From Saccharopolyspora gloriosae (GTDB lineage: Bacteria > Actinomycetota > Actinomycetes > Mycobacteriales > Pseudonocardiaceae), in contig NZ_CP059557.1 of assembly GCF_022828475.1 (NCBI RefSeq), forward strand, positions 3,953,470 to 4,017,469: 64,000 nt of DNA, given 5' to 3'. Positions 13,947 to 58,662 of the stretch are shown here, piece after piece; position 1 is the stretch's first letter; each line of letters opens with the position of its first letter. The notes beneath the pieces are model-generated. The model was not told where the DNA came from and did no database searches. It saw nothing but the letters and a program-made list of their open reading frames with translations. The position numbers and the translations under genes were made by a program.

Positions 13947-13978
13947 TCCCGAAGGCGGGCGCAGCGGCGACCTGATCA

Positions 13979-14218
13979 GAGTGAACGGACCGTTCGCCCA
14001 ACAAGAGTGGACGAACGGTCCGTTCACTCCCGCCGCACTGCTCGCCGACGGTGCGTCGGCGCCCAGTGCGTCCGCGTCGGCCGGGTCGCGCCCACTCCTG
14101 ATCTGAGTGAACGGACCGTTCGCCCGATCTCGTTGGTCAAGCGGTCCGCTCACCCCGAACCGGAAGTGAGTGAACGGACCGTTCGTCCAGCGGGATGGGA
14201 CCAACGGTCCGTTCACTC
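13979..14218. repeat. Three tandem long inverted repeats (GAGTGAACGGACCGTTCG family)
   Basis: The motif GAGTGAACGGACCGTTCG occurs at 13979, 14105 and 14168. Each is followed by its inverted partner: 14012-14029 (perfect 18 bp), 14138-14155 (four mismatches) and 14201-14218 (one mismatch). Loops are about 15 nt. The half-site AACGGNCCGTT is itself near-palindromic, so each unit is a nested inverted repeat. They fill the gap between the convergent lysozyme and arabinosyltransferase genes. There is no coding potential. Confidence 0.85.
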
Positions 14219-14229
14219 CGGGAAAGACA

Positions 14230-14272
14230 GCGGCCCACCTGCCCGGGAGATCCGGGCGGGTGGGCCGCTTTT
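14230..14272. terminator. Strong bidirectional intrinsic terminator
   Basis: A 17-bp stem (GCGGCCCACCTGCCCGG / CCGGGCGGGTGGGCCGC, one wobble) with a 5-nt loop is followed by TTTT on the plus strand and preceded by an A-rich stretch for the minus direction. It ends transcription between the convergent lysozyme and emb genes. Confidence 0.8.
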
Positions 14273-23149: not shown

Positions 23150-23415
23150 GCAATGCCCGATTGCTTGCGACCGAAGCCCGTGCCTCGCGGCGAAGCCGTG
23201 CATTGGGCGGCGAAGCCAGCCTGCTTTGCGGCCGAAGGCCGTGCCTGTATGTGCGAAGCACATAGCCCACGTCGAAAAAACGACCACCCGCGGGTTCTCA
23301 GTGGCTTCCTCGCGAGGACAGCTTTTTCCCTCGTGGCGGAGCCACCAGGGAAAAAGATCCCGCAGCGAGGAAGCAACTGAGGTTCCGCTACCCGACCCCC
23401 AAAGCAAAACGAGCC
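23150..23415 (+). repeat. Dispersed structured repeat, copy A (long form), inside the sulfur operon
   Basis: Core stem arms CTCAGTGGCTTCCTCGC (23297-23313) and GCGAGGAAGCAACTGAG (23365-23381), one mismatch. The loop holds an inner stem CTTTTTCCC/GGGAAAAAG and a tip GTGGC-GGA-GCCAC. Flanks CGACCACC..GGTTCTCAG and CTGAGGTTCCGCTACCCGAC are shared by all copies. To the left (23155-23280) lies an array of GAA-loop mini-hairpins, e.g. TATGTGC-GAA-GCACATA (23248-23264) and GGCC-GAA-GGCC. The right end (..GCAAAACGAG) stops 5 nt from the permease stop codon. The element separates ssuC from ssuA. Confidence 0.85.
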
Positions 23416-36354: not shown

Positions 36355-37071
36355 ATGGCTGAGAAGATCACCGGAGAGTTCGTGCCGGTCGGCACCTCCC
36401 GCACCTACCTGGCCCGTCCCGAAGTGGACGAAGGCGGCGGAATGCTGCTGCTGCCGATGCTCACCGGCATCGGCGAGCAAGTGCGCGAATTCGCCGCGGA
36501 CCTCGCCGCGGCCGGCGTCACCGCGCTGTCCTGGGACCCGTGGGACGGACCGAGCGCCGACAACACCGGGCACGAAGAGCTGGTGCGGCTGATGGGGCGG
36601 CTCGACGACGAAACGGCGCTCGCCGAGCAGCAGCGGCTGCTCTCGCACATGTTCAACGAACTCGGGCTGCGGCGAGTCGGAGTCATCGGCTGGTGCCTCG
36701 GCGGCCGGTTCGCACTGCTGCTCGGCGGGCGGGACAAACGGCTCGCCAACGTGATCGCCTACCACCCGACAGTGCCCATCCCGGCCGCGCCGAACCACGC
36801 GCTCGACGCCGCCGAACACGCCGCCCGCATCGACGCGCCGGTCATGATGCACTACCCGGGCGCGGACGACCTGGTGCCGAGGGAGAGCTTCGACGCGCTC
36901 AACGCGGCGCTCACCGGCCGCAGCCACGGGGCGAGCATCGTGCACACCTACCCCGGCGCCGAACACGGCTTCAGCGCCCGCGCCCGGCAGACGAAACCCG
37001 TCAACGAAGAGGCCTACCTCCACTCCTGGCCCCAATCCCTGAGCTTCGTCCGGACTACTGTTCTTCGGTGA
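36355..37071 (+). CDS. Dienelactone hydrolase family protein
   Basis: 238 aa. Alpha/beta hydrolase of the DLH type with Cys as nucleophile: VGVIGWCLGGRFALLL (G-x-C-x-G-G), Asp in MHYPGADDLVP and His in YPGAEHGFSARAR. Chlorocatechol-pathway enzymes have this triad, but many members act on other lactones or esters. No ring-cleavage genes are nearby. Repeat copy B follows its stop codon within a few nucleotides. Confidence 0.85.
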   Translation: MAEKITGEFVPVGTSRTYLARPEVDEGGGMLLLPMLTGIGEQVREFAADLAAAGVTALSWDPWDGPSADNTGHEELVRLMGRLDDETALAEQQRLLSHMFNELGLRRVGVIGWCLGGRFALLLGGRDKRLANVIAYHPTVPIPAAPNHALDAAEHAARIDAPVMMHYPGADDLVPRESFDALNAALTGRSHGASIVHTYPGAEHGFSARARQTKPVNEEAYLHSWPQSLSFVRTTVLR

Positions 37072-37075
37072 TTCC

Positions 37076-37440
37076 ACGGCTCGTTTTGCTTTGGGGGTCG
37101 GGTAGCGGAACCTCAGTTGGTCTCTCGCTGCGGGATCTTTTTCACTAGTGGCTCCGCCACGAGGGAAAAAGCTGTCCTCGCGAGAGACCAACTGAGAACC
37201 CGCCGGTGGTCGGCTTTGTGACGTGGGCTATGTGCTTCGCACATACAGGCACGGCCTTCGGCCGCAAGGCAGGCGTGGCTTCGCCCGCCCTTCGCGGACT
37301 TCGCCGCCAACGGAACGGCTTCGCCGCAAAGCACGGGCTTCGCCGCGAGGCAAGTGGGGTTTTGTCCGGTCTTCGCGGGCTTTGCCGCCGACTGCACGGG
37401 TCGGCCGTCGAGGAGGGTTTGCTTCGTTCTTCGTGGGGTT
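37076..37440 (-). repeat. Dispersed structured repeat, copy B (long form)
   Basis: Inverted relative to copy A. Stem arms CTCAGTTGGTCTCTCGC (37112-37128) and GCGAGAGACCAACTGAG (37180-37196), perfect 17 bp. The inner loop stem is partly eroded (CTTTTTC..GGGAAAAAG). Outside it is the hairpin TATGTGC-TTC-GCACATA (37229-37245), GGCC-TTC-GGCC (37253-37263) and an irregular array of TTC-loop hairpins to about 37440. CTCGTTTTGC begins about 7 nt after the dienelactone hydrolase stop. The convergent AEC gene ends at 37481. Confidence 0.85.
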
Positions 37441-42171: not shown

Positions 42172-42288
42172 TGACGTCTCCGGTTTTCAGTTCGTCAGCA
42201 CGGATTCAGTGCGCGAGAGAGGGAAATTCCCGAAGGGAGATCTTTGCGTCATTGTCAGCGGCGGAGCCGCCGTGCAGTGACCAGCTTG

Positions 42289-42437
42289 AGCAGGCCGACC
42301 ACCGGCGGGTTCTCAGCGGCTTCCTCGCAAGGACGGCGTTTTCGCCGTGTATCGGAATTCGATCCCACCGCGAGGAAGCCGCTGAGGTTCCGCTACCGGA
42401 CACCCACGCGAGCCATTCAGAAAGAGCTCAATACCCG
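42289..42437 (+). repeat. Dispersed structured repeat, copy C (short form)
   Basis: Stem arms CTCAGCGGCTTCCTCGC (42312-42328) and GCGAGGAAGCCGCTGAG (42370-42386), perfect 17 bp. The loop differs from copies A/B/E: GGCG-TTTT-CGCC and ATCG-GAAT-TCGAT replace the usual inner stem. The flanks CGACCACCGGCGGGTTCTCAG, in parts, and CTGAGGTTCCGCTACC are kept. No mini-hairpin array. The right end lies about 10-15 nt from the gudD stop. It separates gudD from the MFS gene within the cluster. Confidence 0.8.
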
Positions 42438-42438
42438 A

Positions 42439-43731
42439 TCACCAGACGGGGAAGGCCGGGGCGGTCCACTCCGGGTGCACGCGGCGCATCGCGGCGGCGT
42501 CGTCGCGGTCCCGGACGTCGCTGTCGAGCCAACGCCGGTGCAGCTTCGCCAGCGACTCCCGGTCCAGTTCGATGCCCAACCCGGGCGCGTCGGTGACTTC
42601 CACGGCGCCGTCGGTGAAGGTGTGCGGCACCGTGATGACGTCCTCGGTCTGCCACGGCCGGTGCGTGTCGCACGCGTAGTACAGCTCGGGGATGGTGGCC
42701 GCCACGTGGGTCATCGCGGCCAGGCTGATGCCCAGGTGCGTGTTGGAGTGCATCGACAGCTGCTTGCCGTAGGTGCGGCAGACCGCGGCCAGGTCCTGAG
42801 TCGCGCGCAGTCCGCCCCAGTAGTGGTGGTCGGAGAGCACGACCTGCACGGCGTCGCTGGTGAACGCGGCCGGAACCTCGTCGATCGCGGTCACGCACAT
42901 GTTGGTGGCCAGTGGCAGGCTGGTCTTCGCGGCGACCTGGGCCATCTGCTCGGTGCCCGCAGTGGGGTCCTCCAGGTATTCGGCGACGCCCTCCAGCGCC
43001 GCGGCGACCTCCAGGCTCGTCTGAACCGACCAGGCGCCGTTCGGATCCAGCCGCAGCGGCGCGTCCGGGAACGCCTCGTGCAGGGCGTGGATCGCCGCGA
43101 CTTCCTGCTTCGGTTCGAAGGCGCCGCCCTTGAGCTTGAAGGACTTGAATCCGTAGCGGTCGGCGAACTGCCGCGCCTGCTCGACGACGCCCGCCGGGTC
43201 CAGCGCCGCACCCCAGTCGTCCTCGGGTTCGCCCGCCACGGGGTGCTCGGCCCAGCGGTAGAATAGGTAGCCGCTGTACTCCACGCGGTCTCGGACCTTG
43301 CCGCCGAGCAGCGCGTGCACCGGCAGCCCGGTCTCGCGGCCCAGCGCGTCGAGCAGCGCCACCTCGAATCCGGACACGACGCTGTGCACCAGTTTCACCT
43401 CGGTGCGGGCACCGCGGAGGCCTTCGGCGACCACGGTGTTGTCGATCTGCGCGATGTCGACTTCGGCGGCCGCGGCGGTGACCCTGGCGAACAGGTCGTT
43501 GCGGGCGGTCAGCGGCTGCCCGATGAGTTTCGGGCCGAACGCCTGCGCGATCTTCAGGTAGTCGGTGTCGCCGTAGGTCTCGCCGATGCCGCTCACCCCG
43601 TTCTCGGTGACGACCTCGATGATCGTGCGCGGCGTGTAGGGCTGGTGCACGCCCTGCACGTTCAGCAGCGGCGGGTCGCTGATCAGGATCGGGGTGACAC
43701 GGACCTCGGCGATGCGGATGCTCTCGGACAT
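42439..43731 (-). CDS. gudD: Glucarate dehydratase
   Basis: 430 aa enolase-superfamily enzyme of the GlucD group. K-x-K motif in GFKSFKLKGGAF, metal ligands in LRLDPNGAW and YLEDP, Asn in NMC, and the catalytic His region in SDHHYWGG and SMHSNTHLGIS. Converts D-glucarate to 5-dehydro-4-deoxy-D-glucarate. The next step is encoded by the gene just upstream, kdgD. Length is close to the usual 440-450. Confidence 0.9.
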   Translation of the reverse strand: MSESIRIAEVRVTPILISDPPLLNVQGVHQPYTPRTIIEVVTENGVSGIGETYGDTDYLKIAQAFGPKLIGQPLTARNDLFARVTAAAAEVDIAQIDNTVVAEGLRGARTEVKLVHSVVSGFEVALLDALGRETGLPVHALLGGKVRDRVEYSGYLFYRWAEHPVAGEPEDDWGAALDPAGVVEQARQFADRYGFKSFKLKGGAFEPKQEVAAIHALHEAFPDAPLRLDPNGAWSVQTSLEVAAALEGVAEYLEDPTAGTEQMAQVAAKTSLPLATNMCVTAIDEVPAAFTSDAVQVVLSDHHYWGGLRATQDLAAVCRTYGKQLSMHSNTHLGISLAAMTHVAATIPELYYACDTHRPWQTEDVITVPHTFTDGAVEVTDAPGLGIELDRESLAKLHRRWLDSDVRDRDDAAAMRRVHPEWTAPAFPVW

Positions 43732-50344: not shown

Positions 50345-50490
50345 GAACGACCACCAGCCCGTTCTCAGCGGCTTCCTCGCGCGGACCAGCGATTTCCCTC
50401 GGGGCGGAGGTACCCGCGAAATCGATCCCGCAGCGAGCAAGCCGCTGAGGTTCCGCAGCCCGACCCGCTACGCGGGCCACTCCGAAAGAG
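50345..50490 (+). repeat. Dispersed structured repeat, copy D (short form, next to a start codon)
   Basis: Stem arms CTCAGCGGCTTCCTCGC (50364-50380) and GCGAGCAAGCCGCTGAG (50433-50449), one mismatch. The inner stem is CGATTTC/GAAATCG instead of the CTTTTTCCC/GGGAAAAAG of copies A/B/E, again a paired change. Flanks CGACCACCAGCCCGTTCTCAG, in parts, and CTGAGGTTCCGCAGCCCGAC. Unlike the other four copies its right end is 15 nt from a start codon (DUF2277), just before the ribosome-binding site. Confidence 0.8.
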
Positions 50491-57419: not shown

Positions 57420-57757
57420 AACCTCATCCCGCCAGGCGAAGCCCCACCTAACGCCGAAGCCAACTCCTAACGGCGAAGCCAAACCCGTGCGACGAAGCCG
57501 CGCCTTACGGCGAAGCCGAATCTTTGCGGCCGAAGGCCGTGCCTTACGGCGAAGCCGAATCCTTACGGCCGAAGGCCGTGCCTGTATGCGCGAAGCGCAT
57601 AGCCCACGTCACAAAGCCGACCACCCGCGGGTTCTCAGTTGGTCTCTCGCGAGGACAGCTTTTTCCCTCGTGGCGGAGCCACTCGGGAAAAAGATCCCGC
57701 AGCGAGAGACCAACTGAGGTTCCGCCACCCGACCACCAAAGCAAAACGAGACCGAAG
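57420..57757 (+). repeat. Dispersed structured repeat, copy E (long form)
   Basis: Stem arms CTCAGTTGGTCTCTCGC (57634-57650) and GCGAGAGACCAACTGAG (57702-57718), perfect 17 bp. The loop matches copy A at all but two positions although the stems differ. To the left are TATGCGC-GAA-GCGCATA (57585-57601), two copies of GGCC-GAA-GGCC and several CGGC-GAA-GCCG units from about 57425. The hairpin is TATGTGC/GCACATA in A and B, a compensatory change. The right end (..CAAAACGAG) lies about 9 nt from the esterase stop codon. Confidence 0.85.
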
Positions 57758-57759
57758 AT

Positions 57760-58662
57760 TCACCGCTCGGCTGAGACGCCGGTACCCAGGAAGCGGAGCA
57801 TGTCGGCGCCTACTACGTCGAACACCGAGGAGTCGTGGTTCCCCGGCAGCACCGACATCACCGGAGTGTTCGGGTACTCCCCCGCCAGCTGATCCACACC
57901 TTCCCGATACAGGTCGGCGTCGCCGATCCACACGCCGACCGGGACGTCGCCCAGCTGATCGGTGCGGCGCAGCGGGTCGTTCTCGATCCACTCCTGCTCG
58001 GTCGCGAACACGCCCTTCTCGTCCATGTGCGGCCAGGTCACCGGCAGCGCAGGCGCCAACAGCGCGGCGGCCTGGACGGGCAGCTCCACCTCGGTGCGTT
58101 CGGCGGCGTAGTTCAGTGCGCCGAAGCCGCCGGTCGATATTCCGGCGACCGCGAACGGCAAGCCGTCGCGGTCACCGAGCCCGCGGGTGCGGAGCCACGC
58201 GGGCACCTCCTCGAGCAGCATGCTCATCAGGTCGCCGTTGGCGGAGCCATCGTTCCAGTAGCAGTTGAACCCGCCGTCGACGGCGAGCAACCCGAACGGC
58301 GGGATGGCCCCGTTGGCGTACTCGGTTTCCAGCTTGGCCAACGTCTCGTACGGTATCGGAGTCGGACTCATCCCGTCCCTGCCGTGCAGGTACAGCACCA
58401 TCGGCAGGTTCTCGGTGTGTTCCAGACCCGTCGGGAACGCGAACATGAGCTGCACGTCCCCGTCCCGGTAGTGGGAACGCTCCGCGTCCACTTGCAGTAC
58501 CGGTCCGGTCGCCGCCGGAGTCCTCGGCATCGGTCTGCGCAGCGGCGCCTCCGCAGTGGCCGATCCGGGCTCCGTTCGCCCGCACGCCCCCACAGCGGCG
58601 CCTGCCGCCGCCGCACCCATCAAGGACAGCAGGCTTCGCCGCCCCAGTTTCACGTTCCGCAT
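57760..58662 (-). CDS. Alpha/beta hydrolase, esterase family lipoprotein
   Basis: 300 aa. Twin-Arg lipoprotein signal: KLGRRSLLSLMGAAAAGAAV then GAC, Cys near 27. The catalytic domain resembles the esterase D/antigen-85-like family: LPMVLYLHGRDGMSPTP, the Ser elbow FAVAGISTGGFGALNYA (G-x-S-x-G), Asp in VWIGDADLYREG and His in LPGNHDSSVFD. Secreted or surface esterase. Its 3' end adjoins repeat copy E. Confidence 0.8.
   Translation of the reverse strand: MRNVKLGRRSLLSLMGAAAAGAAVGACGRTEPGSATAEAPLRRPMPRTPAATGPVLQVDAERSHYRDGDVQLMFAFPTGLEHTENLPMVLYLHGRDGMSPTPIPYETLAKLETEYANGAIPPFGLLAVDGGFNCYWNDGSANGDLMSMLLEEVPAWLRTRGLGDRDGLPFAVAGISTGGFGALNYAAERTEVELPVQAAALLAPALPVTWPHMDEKGVFATEQEWIENDPLRRTDQLGDVPVGVWIGDADLYREGVDQLAGEYPNTPVMSVLPGNHDSSVFDVVGADMLRFLGTGVSAER

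Follow-up and report, generated by a model that had tools for sequence, protein, structure and literature searches.

Why does a long hairpin, constant in its loop motifs and variable in its stem, recur five times within 64 kb of a Saccharopolyspora genome, and is it kept there as RNA, as DNA, or for no purpose at all? An earlier note on this 64-kb stretch (here called the window) described five near-identical, dispersed copies whose stem arms differ in a compensatory way, and read the pattern as selection for a folded RNA or a cruciform DNA. Here, we report the anatomy, distribution, mobility, and genomic placement of this element and weigh the explanations that these results allow.

Both 17-nt arms of the five copies were recovered by pattern search over the 64-kb window (up to 2 mismatches), with arm starts at 23297/23365 (copy A), 37112/37180 (copy B), 42312/42370 (copy C), 50364/50433 (copy D), and 57634/57702 (copy E). 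The arm pattern matched 11 times, 10 of these matches being the arms of the five copies, against an expectation of 0.68, and none of 100 shuffles reached 11. The three arm versions of the earlier note were confirmed, with no arm mismatch in B, C, and E and one each in A and D. All five copies are present as described; "near-identical" holds for A, B, and E only, which form one type (90 to 96% identity over 190 to 197 nt), C and D being more diverged (D versus A, 80% over 87 nt; C versus D, 73% over 83 nt) and unlike A/B/E in their left half.

The core hairpin of copy E (57627..57725, plus strand) is built of GCGG-GTT-, a 17-bp outer stem, a GAGGACAGC/ATCCCGCA loop, an inner stem, and a GGA tip. 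The interval first assigned to it, 57420-57757, does cover copy E; the rest of that interval, outside the hairpin proper, includes an upstream GGCGAAGCC-like array. To the left of the core lie a small hairpin (TATGCGC-GAA-GCGCATA; 57585..57601, plus strand), which in the A/B/E type occupies the place of hairpin 1 of the other copies, and an array of short GNA-loop hairpins (GGCGAAGCC, GGCCGAAGGCC; 57436..57582, plus strand, start approximate) that differs between copies. To the right, an A+C-rich tail (57726..57759, plus strand) reaches the stop codon (TCA, 57760-57762) of a convergent esterase-like gene (PF00756; 57760..58662, minus strand), towards which the right end of the hairpin points and whose stop abuts the copy. 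The core of copy A (23290..23388, plus strand) is followed on the right by a minus-strand ABC permease gene (PF00528; 23418-24239). Copy B (37105..37203, minus strand) is inverted relative to the other four, and its right end faces a plus-strand gene ending at 37071. In copy C (42305..42393, plus strand) the inner stem is shortened; hairpin 1 lies at 42258-42270, and the gene on the right (42439-43731, minus strand) is of the MR_MLE family. Copy D (50357..50456, plus strand) is of a second type and is the window's exception, its right-hand gene lying on the plus strand. The core measures 99 nt and the whole element ~200 to 230 bp. The minihairpin array is seen left of A, B, and E, other types being without it; it is possibly an expansion of hairpin 1. 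A separate palindrome cluster of the form GTGAACGGACCGTTCGCCC, in direct and inverted repeats, was seen elsewhere in the window (13970-14245) and resembles an operator array.

Beyond the window, its genome (G000, 6.88 Mb) contained 99 forward and 99 reverse matches, 198 in all, to a strict pattern (TTCTCAG-N55-85-CTGAGGTTC), and the reversed control gave 0 + 0. These copies are unevenly spread: of the first 100 listed, the first megabase has 38, the second 34, the third 16, and the interval 3-4.01 Mb 12, with the other 98 falling in the remaining 2.9 Mb. Stretches of 400 kb held 17 copies in a sister species (G001) and 4 in G003, with 24 in 450 kb of G000 (score >=35), and seven g50 genomes held one to four copies each; for most genomes copy counts rest on the matches listed and are to be read as "at least." Of 41 genomes in a first DNA search, 10 matched, G000 among them, the named matches being Saccharopolyspora, Halosaccharopolyspora, Halopolyspora, and Actinopolyspora (NCBI taxonomy places Saccharopolyspora in Pseudonocardiaceae and Actinopolyspora in Actinopolysporaceae).

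That relatives carry further copies, on which the earlier reading depended, was borne out with a covariance model (R1) built from 55 copies, i.e., from an alignment prefiltered for arm pairing. R1 matched 54 of 200 genomes and 13 of 46 genera of the window's family (E <=1e-4), "family" here being the search tool's own genome grouping. A class-wide R1 search of 394 genomes, with stricter filters that may lose weak matches, returned two, G000 and G054 of the same family; in the genomes sampled, the element is confined to one family of that grouping. The earlier note knew of no named family with this sequence, and no Rfam match at gathering score was found in the window. An Rfam search of locus L001 with E up to 5 gave one chance-level match, outside the element. 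Plasmid and phage records had no match to the element, viral contigs had none to the exact pattern, and a search of open-license publications found no report of the element family.

In RNA folding, z scores were -5.2 to -9.0 for copies A, C, D, and E (core, plus strand) and -10.1 for the minus strand of E, with no shuffle as stable in either case; each of these five sequences forms one long hairpin. By themselves, five paralogues might owe such a pattern to descent from a small number of mobile types. A larger alignment of 76 copies was made by sequence only, with no pairing filter and with within-genome likeness of at most ~93% (from 190 copies, 30 unanchored, 82 similar, and 2 unplaced were excluded). 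In it, 25 of 35 named pairs had changed on both sides, 83.5% of cells were paired (69.5% when shuffled), and double-changed cells numbered 332, where shuffles gave 113 (sd 9) and slid partners 73 to 143, so that covariation is strong. The 55-copy alignment, prefiltered to <=4 arm mismatches, a filter that favors pairing, agrees with this unfiltered repeat: 21 of 35 pairs were double-changed, with 227 cells against 75 in shuffles, the pair count alone being unexceptional (reached by 46 of 500 shuffles). Helix 3 was paired at 65.8% and 68.8% in the two alignments, and the lower inner stem and tip were poorly paired because several types differ there.

The fold is also kept at a fixed site. In one genus, a copy 3' of gatB is common to five genomes in the same orientation (GatB 92 to 97% identical); between L269 and L271, both from one-copy genomes, six pairs are compensated, two are wobble, and none is broken, and L274 has three broken pairs against each other copy. 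Around the variable stems, two loop motifs (GAGGACAGC, ATCCCGCA) stay conserved across genera. Among 160 anchored copies, 20 show mismatches at more than 4 of the 17 arm pairs, and two copies (L016, L019) are chimeric with mismatched arms. The fold is maintained by compensating changes, and selection for a folded form, as first proposed, is supported by the covariation over 76 copies, the compensation at the gatB site, the loop motifs, and an excess of G.T over A.C mismatches outside the window's genus.

This last signal bears on which strand folds. Outside the window's genus, 54 distinct arm pairs contained 66 G.T and 8 A.C, with 27 other mismatches (14 pairs with >5 mismatches skipped; L256-L261 included). 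An overlapping set of 58 pairs, without loci L256-L261, gave 64 versus 11, or 43 versus 10 when collapsed by position, type, and left context. Within the window's genus wobble is balanced (21 G.T versus 17 A.C in G000; 3 versus 3 in nine further arm pairs), and the first 84 arm pairs, mostly from G000, gave a lineage-dependent 57 versus 31; wobble gives no information on strand for this genus's young copies. Since G.T exceeds A.C outside it, folding probably takes place in the plus strand, either as RNA or as single-stranded DNA. As the folding strand it is strongly indicated, and RNA is the more likely of its two forms. Both 35-nt flanks of the hairpin are A+C-rich and T-poor on the plus strand relative to post-stop background, with T at 0.07 to 0.13 in the right flank (mean, five genomes). 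With no U-tract there, the element is not a standard intrinsic terminator, and that candidate was rejected; the listed right flanks had no outstanding T run.

Mobility was assessed by syntenic comparison of 450 kb of G000 with 400 kb each of G001 and G003 (G000 and G001 are 88% identical over the 0.9-kb stretch tested). Collinear flanks were found in G001 for 14 of 24 G000 copies; 13 of these 14 sites were empty and one was filled (g0 209638). The cleanest empty site corresponds to a 221-bp insertion at g0 157045, flanked by CATTAAGG and CATG and bearing AAGG on either side. At g0 329866 (G000 4.03 Mb), G000 and G002 hold different copies at the same stop codon and G001 and G003 hold none, which suggests that this spot was hit repeatedly or that one copy displaced the other; the G002 counterpart was located in C45 near 59.7 kb. 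The element is mobile DNA, dispersed and absent from collinear sites of the sister species, and the dispersed copies with empty orthologous sites that characterize a MITE were both found. Its ends resemble weak, lineage-specific inverted repeats, with one clean 4-bp duplication. In a non-exhaustive search for an autonomous longer element, a terminal-repeat pattern matched 3 of 8 genomes, and six of seven matches in the local stretches lay at known copies.

Several further variants were observed. A coupling between the two flanking CACCGC/ACCACC motifs, judged by eye, seems lineage-wide only. A second stem type (CTCACCTCG...) occurs in G018, where the left flank of some copies (L176, L180, L184, L190) contains the reversed end of another, as if head to head. 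An extra insert of up to ~60 nt is seen in L278, L283, L291, and L292 (low-copy genera) and in L106, L111, L119, and L121, sitting either within the inner loop or close to the ATCCCGCA side (e.g., CACACCGGC..GGGGC or a GGGGCGGTGGTCGGGCTGGCGGGTGGG block), with the outer stem largely paired.

To locate copies relative to genes, genes were called by a simple codon-position GC script, so gene boundaries are approximate. In contiguous stretches not chosen for holding copies, the right gene was on the minus strand in 35 of 45 cases. All pieces together, many of them chosen for holding copies, contained 190 copies, 160 of them anchored and 151 with genes on both sides. Flanking gene pairs of these 151 were +- 62, -- 61, ++ 18, and -+ 10 (background spacers: 293, 460, 391, and 340, respectively), i.e., the right gene was on the minus strand in 123 and on the plus strand in 28. 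For 86 of the 123, a stop codon lies 30 to 50 nt from the GGTTCCG end; the conserved right end fills ~30 to 38 of those nucleotides, which leaves it ~0 to 10 nt from the stop.

This adjacency is tight even in roomy spacers. In codirectional spacers with at least 60 bp to spare, the right end was within 15 bp of the stop in 33 of 42 cases (expected, 3.9; best of 20,000 simulations, 11), and in 31 roomy convergent spacers the element end was near the stop on the right 22 times and on the left once. The covariance model supplied 50 further loci, none known from the window's genus and nine (L256-L261, L263-L265) of unlisted genome rows. Four were unanchored and one lay at an edge; 41 of the other 45 had a minus-strand right gene, with the stop at 37 to 39 nt in 18, and these 41 are not independent insertions because several are orthologous copies. 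Young and older G000 copies are placed alike (stop 15 to 50 nt away in 21 of 33 and 23 of 37, respectively; loci L256-L261 not included). The stop-codon sequence was rejected as a target motif, as usage near elements (TGA 92, TAG 13, TAA 2) is in line with background (1806, 203, and 47 overall). A common partner gene was rejected as well: of 107 copies with a stop 15 to 60 nt away, 101 yielded a neighbor, these neighbors span 190 Pfam families, and none of the 25 families listed has more than 4 members or is a transposase family. The right end adjoins the stop of a gene that runs towards the element. This position beside the stop of a converging gene is new relative to the earlier note, which missed it together with the mobility and the restriction to one group.

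Candidate mobilizing enzymes were sought with protein family models. Y1 transposase (PF01797) had no match in G000-G003, G018, and G019, with a positive Escherichia coli control; it matched 5 of 24 genomes, carriers G004, G005, G010, and G017 among them. Reverse transcriptase (PF00078) had no match in G000, G001, G003-G005, G010, G018, and G019 and matched 11 of 24 genomes, including carriers G002 and G017. Mobilization of the REP/RAYT and IS200/IS605 kinds was rejected for the first set of genomes, and retro-mobility (group II intron or similar) for the second; with neither Y1 nor reverse transcriptase in G000, G001, G003, and G018, the known routes for such repeats are inapplicable there. 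A search for IS91-type Y2 gave no match anywhere, controls likewise, and integron integrase TIGR02249 was over cut-off in 0 of 15 genomes and in 0 of 14 controls; no mobilizing enzyme emerged from these searches.

Hairpin repeats located 3' of genes are long familiar from Proteobacteria and are not known to have an agreed function. Judged by likeness, the present element appears to be of the hairpin-forming MITE kind, with YPAL and REP elements as its probable closest kin. In the available text of its description, YPAL/RU-2 of Yersinia is 168 bp long (~200 to 230 bp here), has internal, non-terminal inverted repeats, is intergenic and adjoins genes, and has empty and filled sites that mark recent movement, its mobilizing enzyme being unnamed (PMC2229807). 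Compared by description, the element here differs in its fold covariation over several genera, its directional stop-side placement, a folding strand that appears antisense, and its actinobacterial hosts. REP/REPIN-RAYT systems share with it extragenic palindromes in many copies, many near stops (PMC12306157, PMC3733652). REPs are 20- to 40-bp units with a GTAG or CGTC tag (PMC3733652), whereas the core here is 99 nt; two hallmarks of REP/RAYT are missing, the 20- to 40-bp unit and, in G000-G003, G018, and G019, Y1. ERIC and Correia/NEMIS elements, 107 to 155 bp long, are likewise hairpin MITEs and can take part, as RNA, in mRNA processing; they differ in having terminal inverted repeats with TA ends (PMC2229807), the ends here resembling weak, lineage-specific repeats.

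RNA sequencing of Saccharopolyspora erythraea is reported to show 190 putative intergenic noncoding RNAs and an enrichment of antisense transcription towards the 3' ends of genes (PMC3610266). With the known enzymes absent from G000, G001, G003, and G018 and no neighbor family in common, we favor a mobile element whose plus-strand RNA would reach gene borders and limit convergent transcription. We put at about even the chance that this is a miniature mobile element copying into gene ends and carrying a structured RNA at the gene border. The ~200- to 230-bp element of one actinobacterial group would copy itself into gene ends, and its plus-strand RNA would be made left to right and so be directed antisense at the stop-adjacent gene. 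This RNA would combine the long hairpin and its conserved internal loops with a small hairpin at the 5' end and single-stranded linkers rich in A and C. On reaching the gene border it would most likely block or terminate convergent antisense transcription, or else mark or protect the transcript end; in convergent pairs the element would double as the 3' untranslated region of the left gene. Inserts may persist because they are harmless or useful to the host. A transposase encoded elsewhere would act in trans and, in the main carriers, would be based on neither Y1 nor reverse transcriptase. We infer from these points that the plus-strand RNA limits convergent transcription at gene borders. A bolder form, to which we give only a slim chance, is that a ribonucleoprotein on the structured plus-strand RNA targets insertion, in one orientation, to sites just past stops, the RNA then setting the transcript boundary. 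If true, this would be a gene-end-seeking, RNA-bearing mobile element independent of Y1 transposase and reverse transcriptase.

The fold could instead act as a single-stranded DNA hairpin read by the mobilizing enzyme, its structure being kept for mobility, which we consider rather unlikely. GNA-type loops are stable in DNA, and the left hairpins have such loops; folded DNA also favors G.T over A.C, so the G.T excess is compatible with this form too. Structure retained while sequence drifts (76 copies) and active mobility with empty sites in a sister species fit it as well. Y1, the usual reader of such hairpins, is nonetheless absent from G000-G003, G018, and G019 (present in G004, G005, G010, and G017), and the gatB-site fold is kept in one-copy genomes without visible movement. 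Conserved loop motifs outside the stem, found across genera, speak against a functionless MITE like YPAL, ERIC, or REP, in which arms are matched by template switching and placement reflects tolerated insertion; we regard that as improbable. Such correction should be symmetric, yet wobble is one-sided outside the window's genus, and placement is directional, tight even in roomy spacers, and alike for young and older G000 copies, contrary to slow purging. On its side stand the chimeric copies L016 and L019, the 20 of 160 anchored copies with poorly matched arms, the balanced wobble of the window's genus, and the position of known families of such kind 3' of genes (PMC12306157, PMC2229807). Palindrome-templated repair may be a nonselective source of some arm matching.

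A further alternative places the functional form in the mRNA of the adjacent gene, as the reverse complement of the element: a post-stop hairpin would slow translation termination or stabilize the message, as E. coli REP elements do. The minus strand folds well too, and the distance to the stop is within the range in which E. coli REPs stall ribosomes (PMC12306157). Wobble outside the window's genus favors the opposite strand, however, and the A+C-rich linkers are on the plus strand, and we hold this version to be quite improbable.

Whichever form acts, the family yields comparative evidence on the folding strand, on a fold kept at a fixed site by vertical descent, and on directional landing beside stops of each type. 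The evidence on strand, fixed site, and placement opens two questions, what the repeat does and how an insertion can find the ends of genes, to test in actinomycetes that can be cultured, S. erythraea probably among them.
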